47,996 nucleotides of DNA from Verrucomicrobiota bacterium (GTDB taxonomy: Bacteria; Verrucomicrobiota; Verrucomicrobiia; Opitutales; Opitutaceae), in assembly GCA_947471035.1 (NCBI GenBank), contig CANIWJ010000013.1, forward strand, positions 1 to 47,996, written 5' to 3'. The position numbers and the translations under genes are program-made. Under the pieces are notes generated by a model. It did no database searches. It was given only the letters and a program-made list of their open reading frames with translations, and was not told the origin of the DNA. How positions within the stretch are numbered: position 1 is the stretch's first letter; each line of letters begins with the position of its first letter. Positions 37,001 through 38,208 of this stretch are shown piece by piece.

Positions 37001-37999
37001 CGCGAACGCCGCCCCCTCCTCCCGCTCGCCGAGGCCCGCGCCCGCGCCCTCAAGTCCGACTGGACCAGCATCGATATTCCCAAACCTGAGTTTCTTGGCA
37101 CCCGCACCTTCACCACCACCGTGCGCGAACTGCTCGACCGCGAGTTCATCGACTGGGCCCCGTTCTTCAGTGCGTGGGAACTTCACGGCCGCTACCCCGC
37201 CATTCTCACCGACGAAGTCGTCGGGGCCGAGGCCACCAAACTCCACGCCGACGCCCTCGCGATGTTCGAGCGCATCATCGCCGAGAACCGTTTCCAACCG
37301 CAGGCCGTGCTCACATTCTGGCCCGCCAACAGCACCGGCGACGCGGTCGAAATCTACTCCGACGAAACCCGCGCCAAGCCTCTCCACACCTTCCATTTCC
37401 TTCGCCAGCAGATCGAGCACGACGGCGGCAAACCCAACCTTTGCCTCGCCGACTACATCGCGCCCAAGTCCTCCGGCCGCGCCGACTACCTCGGCCAATT
37501 CGCCGTCACCGCCGGCCCCGGCGTCGAACACTTCGCCGCCGAGTTCAAAGCCGCCGGCGACGACTACAACGCCATCCTGGTCCAGTCGCTCGGTGATCGC
37601 ATCGCCGAAGCGATGGCCGAGTTCTTCCACAAACAAGCCCGCGACCTCTGCGGCTACGGCCGCGCCGAAACGCTCACGCCCTACGAAATCATCCACGAAA
37701 AGTATCGCGGCATCCGCCCCGCCCCCGGTTATCCGGCCTGCCCCGACCACCGCCACAAACAGCAAATCTGGAACCTGGTCCCGGTCGAAAAGGCAATCGG
37801 CATCCGCCTCACCGAAAGCTGCGCCATGTATCCGGCGAGCAGTGTCAGCGGCTTCTACTTCAACCACCCCGAGTCGAAGTATTTCGCCGTAGGAAAGCTT
37901 GGGAAGGATCAACTTGAAGATTATGCGCAGCGTTGCGGCACGACTCTCGGCGAAGCCGAGAAGTGGCTCGGCTCTTACCTCGATTACGATCCTTCCTGA
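34085..37999 (+). CDS. metH: Cobalamin-dependent methionine synthase
   Basis: A 1304-residue four-module enzyme that passes a methyl group from methyltetrahydrofolate via cobalamin to homocysteine. The homocysteine module (1-350) shows zinc Cys in [10 protein letters not shown] (about 278) and [10 protein letters not shown] (about 343-344). The folate module (about 405-690) includes [19 protein letters not shown] and [20 protein letters not shown]. The B12 module carries [13 protein letters not shown], whose His (about 834) is the axial cobalt ligand. The activation module has [20 protein letters not shown]. The start at ATG 34085 fits the family; an ATG at 34019 is a weaker alternative. The last 37 codons have codon usage unlike the rest (see the 38101-38208 entry). 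It is divergent from the B12 uptake operon. Confidence 0.95.
35255..35287 (+). repeat. In-frame low-complexity repeat inside metH
   Basis: A short tandem-like run of CTACTCGCTACC units within the linker between the homocysteine and folate modules (residues about 391-402, reading [12 protein letters not shown]). The linker is longer than in typical MetH. It is in frame and in a flexible region, so probably harmless. Confidence 0.55.
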
Positions 38000-38067
38000 G
38001 CTTTCCGTCGGCAACGCAGCGCGGCAGCGCGAAGATGGCATCGCCGCATAGCGATGTCCCGAAGGGA

Positions 38068-38103
38068 TGTGAAATGCGGGCGCCCTCAGGGCTGCATTTC
38101 ACA
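38068..38103. repeat. Hairpin in the spacer between the two metH tails
   Basis: Perfect 10-bp arms TGTGAAATGC (38068-38077) and GCATTTCACA (38094-38103) around a GC-rich loop that itself contains GGGC/GCCC. Two smaller hairpins precede it (CATCGC/GCGATG near 38040 and CCC-GAA-GGG near 38060). The right arm overlaps the start of the second, detached metH tail. Confidence 0.75.
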
Positions 38104-38208
38104 CAACTAGGCCGCGACCAGCTCGAAGACTACGCCCACCGCACCGGCGAACCCCTCACCGACCACGAAAAGTGGCTCAGCCCCTACCTCGACTACGACC
38201 CGAGCTAA
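38101..38208 (+). pseudogene. Detached second copy of the metH C-terminal tail
   Basis: In a frame with no usable start the sequence encodes TQLGRDQLEDYAHRTGEPLT, DHEKWL and YLDYDPS and then a stop. The real metH end encodes [15 protein letters not shown]...EKWL..YLDYDPS, so the two are homologous over 35-37 residues. The detached copy uses the C-ending codons normal for this genome (GAC, TAC, CTC), whereas the tail attached to metH uses CTT, GAT, TAT, CAA and GGG freely. The simplest reading is that the detached copy is the original metH end, displaced when about 215 bp (37886-38100) carrying a replacement tail was inserted after a TTTC that is present at both boundaries. Confidence 0.75.

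Follow-up and report, generated by a model that had tools for sequence, protein, structure and literature searches.

Mobile elements able to repair the gene that they enter are familiar from islands of kilobase size. Here we describe gene repair that accompanies an element of about 91 bp without an enzyme of its own, and that does so repeatedly, in a housekeeping gene and in vsr. The element, called H, lies at the 3' end of metH, the gene for cobalamin-dependent methionine synthase, in positions 1 to 47,996 of contig CANIWJ010000013.1 of a Verrucomicrobiota bacterium of the family Opitutaceae (assembly GCA_947471035.1); this whole stretch of 47,996 nt is the window. The metH of the window ends in a foreign tail (tail 1), its native tail (tail 2) lies displaced beyond H, H belongs to a covarying repeat family, and the arrangement recurs in metH, in vsr and in a third gene. 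H is a structured repeat family not found in Rfam, with a clear insertion rule, and its loci form a natural experiment in the survival of important genes after insertions.

Several described systems resemble this locus in part. Integrative elements and genomic islands that split a gene and then restore it leave a displaced fragment behind, as do, for example, those of the Islander database (PMC4383910). The window locus is like these in that the target gene is whole, a displaced fragment lies at the far end and congeners have a single tail. Rickettsia palindromic elements (RPEs) are translated in frame. As in RPEs, a short palindromic element sits inside protein genes and the protein survives; unlike in RPEs, a substitute gene end precedes H. 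The ends of IS200/IS605-type elements, and their guide RNAs, combine a structured end, no target duplication and defined last bases. H is similar in these features (for the group, see PMC6006769), but no TnpA gene is tied to it; no search with TnpB or IscB models was made. The REP/REPIN sequences moved by RAYT (TnpA-REP) transposases are likewise short hairpin repeats with several copies per genome and no enzyme of their own, whereas H has a longer structure of several hairpins, sits inside genes and is not found beside Y1 genes. Finally, H recalls the attC cassettes of integrons, in which a folded recombination site ends a short gene piece, but the attC core boxes are absent from it.

The product of metH in the window has 1326 amino acids, of which the last 37 are encoded by tail 1, and matches in Pfam the five domains expected of the enzyme (Met_synt_B12, S-methyl_trans, Pterin_bind and two B12-binding domains). 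A codon preference score trained on the metH body was -0.263 for the 37 codons of tail 1 and 0.648 for tail 2, against a body mean of 0.649. The lowest of 1252 overlapping 37-codon windows of the body scored -0.035, so tail 1 lies beneath them all. The G+C content of third codon positions is 0.57 in tail 1, 0.88 in tail 2 and 0.85 in the body. The tails agree in 23 of 33 residues and 65 of 99 bases, and a search of the window's own genome recovered tail 2 at E = 6.2e-9. The observation is therefore real: one tail falls below every body window, the orphan matches the body average and the two are homologous. An earlier sequence-only reading, which had described a 37-residue tail of deviant codons followed by a homologous tail in the codon style of the genome, was right on both counts.

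The origin of the tails was examined by comparing both with eight congeners at the nucleotide level. Identity to G004, G007, G005 and G001 (genomes are numbered G, loci L) is 0.85-0.90 for the orphan tail and 0.64-0.67 for the tail that metH uses. The corresponding values are 0.79 and 0.69 in G003, 0.75 and 0.75 in G002, and 0.70 and 0.62 in G014; in G006 they are reversed (0.63 and 0.77). In a tree of the tails, tail 1 pairs with G006 (support 99/94), while tail 2 falls inside a clade with G004, G007, G003, G001, G005 and G014 (96/86). Three relatives, G014, G009 and G011, have an empty site, with one tail match each and a polymerase gene directly after metH. The same kind of polymerase gene follows tail 2 in the window, and the last of three metH tails in G004 has a 3' flank nearly the same as that of tail 2, again with the polymerase gene after it. 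On the strength of the identities, the tree, the single-tail congeners and the shared 3' flank, tail 1 is foreign to the window lineage and tail 2 is the displaced native end, intact and without a start of its own. This is the substitute and displaced end that had been proposed from the sequence. An old local tandem duplication of the tail followed by divergence would account for two collinear tails of similar length, but it is already contradicted and scarcely credible, as it is the orphan tail and not the tail in use that matches the relatives, and tail 1 groups with G006.

The edges of the insertion are as follows (Table 1). On the left, sequence like that of G004 gives way to foreign sequence between about 37870 and 37897. 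On the right, joining the flanks places the junction at 38104/38105 (CAC/AA); the match to the H model extends to 38106, and its final AA is counted as host. The inserted stretch is thus about 208-235 bp, close to the 215 bp that had been suggested, though its edges are not at the TTTC motifs that had been taken as boundaries. These are present at 37882 and 38097, but there are six in 1 kb, and that on the right is part of the final hairpin of H; we regard them as chance occurrences. The counterpart in G004 of the 9-nt remnant left of H reads GCCGTCGGCAAGCTAGG. A 25-nt inverted repeat, 84% complementary (37886-37910 and 37988-38012), brackets the substitute tail. A strong palindrome at 38222-38260, downstream of the native tail and present in G004 too, is perhaps the old metH terminator.

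Table 1. Features of the metH region, in window coordinates.
Feature	Position	Strand	Basis
metH, cobalamin-dependent methionine synthase	34019..37999	+	open reading frame (ORF) list; Pfam
Substitute tail (tail 1, F)	37886..37999, left edge uncertain 37870-37897	+	codon usage; identity profile; tree
Short spacer behind metH stop	38000..38004	+	read from sequence
CCGTCGGCA, 9-nt copy of native metH sequence immediately left of H site	38005..38013	+	G004 comparison
H, structured mobile element modelled as four hairpins	38014..38104 (~91 bp)	+	model match; covariation; joined flanks
Displaced native metH tail (tail 2, N)	38105..38208, LGRDQLEDYAHRTGEPLTDHEKWLSPYLDYDPS from 38107, stop 38206-38208	+	similarity; tree
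Y-family DNA polymerase (ImpB/MucB/SamB)	38447..39739	+	ORF list; Pfam

The segment ahead of the orphan tail is alike in the window, G153, G159, G242 and G261. From these five a first model of H was built; it had matches in 15 of the 17 genomes against which it was run, counting the five sources themselves. Members of the family measure about 90-110 bp. When 35 matches (33 distinct rows) were aligned by fitting them to the model, standard pairs occupied 84.0% of the cells, against 31-54% with the partners slid. Both sides had changed in 148 cells, and none of 500 shuffles reached the observed covariation; two of the six helices have weak support, with 35% and 48% of their cells paired. A covariance-model search of Rfam returned no family match over H, and a known RNA family was accordingly rejected as its identity. 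With a second model, strict filters and no more than 16 candidates scored per genome, 82 of the 252 genomes of the family Opitutaceae proved to contain H; the limit of 16 was reached in G149 and G134. H was found in 26 of 387 genomes of the phylum, all 26 within the order of the window; that search gave ranks of kinship and did not state how many of the 387 lie outside the order, which we take to be Opitutales. So far as searched, the family is confined to this order. The hairpin segment noticed in the window is therefore one copy of a repeated, mobile-looking family. In G149, the eight copies of H that were fetched (L236-L243) all lie inside a small inverted-repeat element, and these elements are similar in many places.

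H inserts without target duplication, in most cases with a G on its left and A's on its right. Of 69 distinct copies, 57 have G as the preceding base, and the match ends in CACAA in 35 and CGCAA in 13. When H, taken as the model match minus its last two bases, is removed and the flanks are joined, metH is restored (the slash marks the join): VGK/LGRDQ in the window, DHTE/KRLLF in G153, LTE/TNAM in G261, TE/KPILF in G159, E/KPTLF in G242 and AE/K in both G062 and G063. The same operation gives the expected vsr protein at L131, L136, L143, L218, L221, L225 and L226, and restores an IS91-type transposase of G150 in three copies (Y2_Tnp by Pfam). No duplicated bases are seen at the joined flanks in metH, vsr or the transposase gene. 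At L220 the flanks do not join in frame. The three transposase gene copies of G150 (L248-L250) are about 96-97% alike, and each is interrupted by H at the same place.

H lies behind metH in seven genomes (G000, G153, G159, G242, G261, G062 and G063), at four positions, and metH is complete ahead of it in all seven. The distance from the metH stop to H is 14 nt in the window, 11 in G153, 13 in G242, 21 in G159 and 6 in both G062 and G063; in G261 H lies about 100 nt past the stop, with another tail remnant between. The window genome is a metagenome-assembled draft (3.64 Mb in 232 contigs, 92% complete, 6.6% contamination), and such fragmentation might suggest an assembly or binning chimera. This is very improbable, as the same architecture is found in independent assemblies, including the 2-contig G159, and the downstream flank of the window matches G004. 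In G153, identity to the congener G152 is 90-100% per ten codons up to AAA CGC CTG CTC TTC GAT and 60-90% (about 73%) beyond. The first part of the substitute tail shows complementarity to the spacer between stop and H at a level reached by 0 of 500 shuffles in the window and in G159 and by 6 of 500 in G242, so that in three of five metH cases it is as if tail and spacer belonged together.

A protein-level test for a duplicated gene end was applied to a first batch of 30 loci, of which 7 were too short. A duplicate was found at 8 of the 23 testable loci, five in metH and three in vsr, although L143 exceeds its shuffles marginally (54 vs 53); L145 (61 vs 58) was left out, since it starts at +8 in low-complexity sequence. 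In each of the 8, alignment of the orphan copy begins at the base immediately following the H match. The orphan tails of G063 and G062 are barely above (48 vs 46) and below (29 vs 37) the control. In a second batch (42 entries, 40 testable, overlapping in part with the first), L231 and L233 were flagged, the latter being a nested vsr case; a 13-amino-acid repeat flagged at L222 was not counted. L231 is the third gene; its tail is present in three copies, of which the first and second are separated by a GNAT gene and the last is preceded by H. A motif scan found vsr sequence after H at 8 loci, with a clear substitute tail in L131, L136 and L143, and two of the remaining loci are Vsr by Pfam on flank-joined pieces. 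H lies in vsr without a tail duplicate at L220, L221, L225 and L226. The pattern noticed in the window thus recurs in other genomes and genes. At L103 (G008:C6) there are two copies of vsr, and between them lie a nucleotidyltransferase-like gene and a small ORF for which Pfam gave no match; the second vsr copy contains H.

Second metH tails are also found apart from H. A composite metH tail was matched in 208 of 252 family genomes, with at least two matches (E<=0.01) in 18. In 14 of these the further stretch of tail follows metH on its own contig at a distance of up to about 3.4 kb, and some of these stretches are weak and decayed (G061, G024, G121); in the other four (G002, G063, G101, G152) the further match is on another contig. 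Two matches were also found in five genomes of the order sample outside the family (G278, G475, G496, G507, G512). The stretches in G004, G007, G024, G061, G079, G080, G081 and G114 have no match to the H model and hold other cargo: PIN and Phd_YefM-like genes in G114 (the antitoxin match is below the Pfam cut-off, and a degenerate H can be made out by eye), a GNAT gene together with a TacA1 antitoxin in G007, a similar GNAT sequence, by reading, in G004, DUF433 in G079 and other ORFs elsewhere. In G080 the tails are nearly alike and the similarity runs past the stop. A distant search of plasmid records gave only short matches of 33-36 bases. Two further loci may be recorded here. L091 (G004:C97, 26984-30601) has three metH tails in series with toxin-antitoxin-like cargo between them, and L067 (G002:C302, 563-673) is a decayed orphan metH tail off the contig of metH, on a contig that also carries H inside vsr.

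Such second tails with other cargo would be expected of a general hotspot, in which one-sided homologous recombination with a related metH is completed by end joining and H is a frequent passenger, much like the toxin-antitoxin genes. This process, homology-facilitated illegitimate recombination (HFIR), is known in bacteria (PMC3240628). A product of HFIR would have a homologous junction on one side and a non-homologous one on the other; here the left side is homologous, and at the 8 loci that have a duplicate the right side coincides with the end of H. The hotspot leaves unexplained why the orphan tail starts exactly there in 8 of 8 and why the same arrangement is found in vsr, and we consider it unlikely.

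Our preferred reading, held tentatively, is that the 3' end of metH in the window is a mosaic of a native body, a substitute tail from a congener like G006, H and the intact displaced native tail, in which substitute tail, short spacer and H form one unit. At the origin of the arrangement H would have inserted into a native tail, and the unit most likely came into the window lineage from a relative in which it was already present. On the left it would have been joined by homologous recombination within metH, and on the right either by recombination in the native tail or by a joining reaction of H itself. MetH would stay whole because the unit brings a complete gene end. The model fits the order of tail, spacer and H shared with G006, where a tail related to tail 1 has behind it, in the same position, a degenerate copy of H (E 0.0023, model R1) that misses the stricter threshold of the second survey. 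It also fits the fact that the orphan tail begins precisely where H stops, and the tail-spacer complementarity seen in three of the five metH cases. H itself may move in a folded single-stranded form, as DNA or RNA, helped by an enzyme whose gene lies elsewhere. A bolder and rather doubtful proposal is that H is the working part of a minimal mobile element that spares genes. In this proposal H, some 90 nt of folded nucleic acid, would direct seamless insertion at G^A in particular genes (metH, vsr) and would travel with a recoded substitute gene end, as a natural home-and-rescue element that makes use of a helper enzyme.

Several observations weigh against transfer as one unit. Native codons persist between the substitute tail and H (VG in the window, DHTE in G153, ATGITLTE in G261, DAE in G062 and LWE in vsr of L136), from which it follows that a native tail carried H without any substitute tail, at an earlier time or in a separate event. 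Solo copies of H are found in vsr and within the IS91-like transposase gene. Between genera, the substitute tails are no more alike (0.55-0.73) than the native tails (0.60-0.77), and on this ground a single mobile lineage of substitute tails was rejected. The complementarity of tail and spacer is absent in G153 and G261 (323 and 377 of 500 shuffles as high), and the tail tree comprises 111 columns with strong support on only 5 of 27 inner branches. No recombinase, circular form or clean-unit donor was found; no search was aimed at tyrosine recombinases or reverse transcriptases.

The main rival reading is two steps in the window lineage, in which H alone truncated MetH and a related metH tail was later copied in to the left of H, rescuing the gene. 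The native codons left of H would be expected, as would the 9-nt remnant of the window, which equals G004 exactly where the G006 relic reads CGTCGGTA. The solo copies in vsr and in the three transposase genes, and the complete metH before H in all seven genomes, also fit. Selection would explain why metH is seen only with a complete tail before H and the dispensable vsr with or without one. Against two steps, a stop-to-H distance of only 6-21 nt in six of seven genomes is not predicted by a random repair tract, and a simple double crossover would remove H rather than keep it. We regard the two-step course as a real possibility for the window lineage, if not a probable one. For the arrangement in the window we lean slightly to transfer of the unit, and the first origin was probably in two steps.

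At metH no integrase, fixed att repeat or circular form was found (the inserted 0.2 kb is too small for an integrase), and no integrase was found in nine other metH intervals among the ORFs scanned with Pfam, which were part of those listed; no genome-wide search was made. Nor was there one fixed attachment core with direct repeats: H occupies four positions in metH, and TTTC marks no boundary. Integration of the kind seen at tRNA genes, which had been suggested for the window, is thus not borne out. Serial insertions, as in the three metH tails of G004 and in L231, are again like those of gene-restoring islands, whereas the lack of a detected integrase or fixed att repeat, a smallest unit of about 0.2 kb and positions that vary within one gene are unlike them. 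In a broad search of the literature, the matches listed included no description of metH as a site of insertion and none of an element like H, as far as the accessible parts of these sources go.

Candidate partners of H fared as follows. In the neighbourhoods of Y1 transposases (30 of 31 Y1 places in 12 genomes, about 1.5 kb per side, less at contig ends), no H was found at E<0.1, the best being E 0.14; a RAYT partner was rejected, as no H lies beside Y1 genes. The integron attC motifs RYYYAAC and GTTRRRY occur together in none of 69 copies of H and each alone in one; an attC identity was rejected. One H in G176 lies 130 bp from an IS200-like gene. The protein of this gene was found in 25 of 252 genomes and in 0 of 15 of the window's genus, and it was rejected as a partner because of this absence.

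Upstream of metH, the window carries a Cobalamin riboswitch (RF00174) at 33682-33871 on the minus strand (L069, 683-872). It lies just upstream of a minus-strand ORF of 643 amino acids (31612-33543), the product of which presumably resembles a TonB-dependent receptor.
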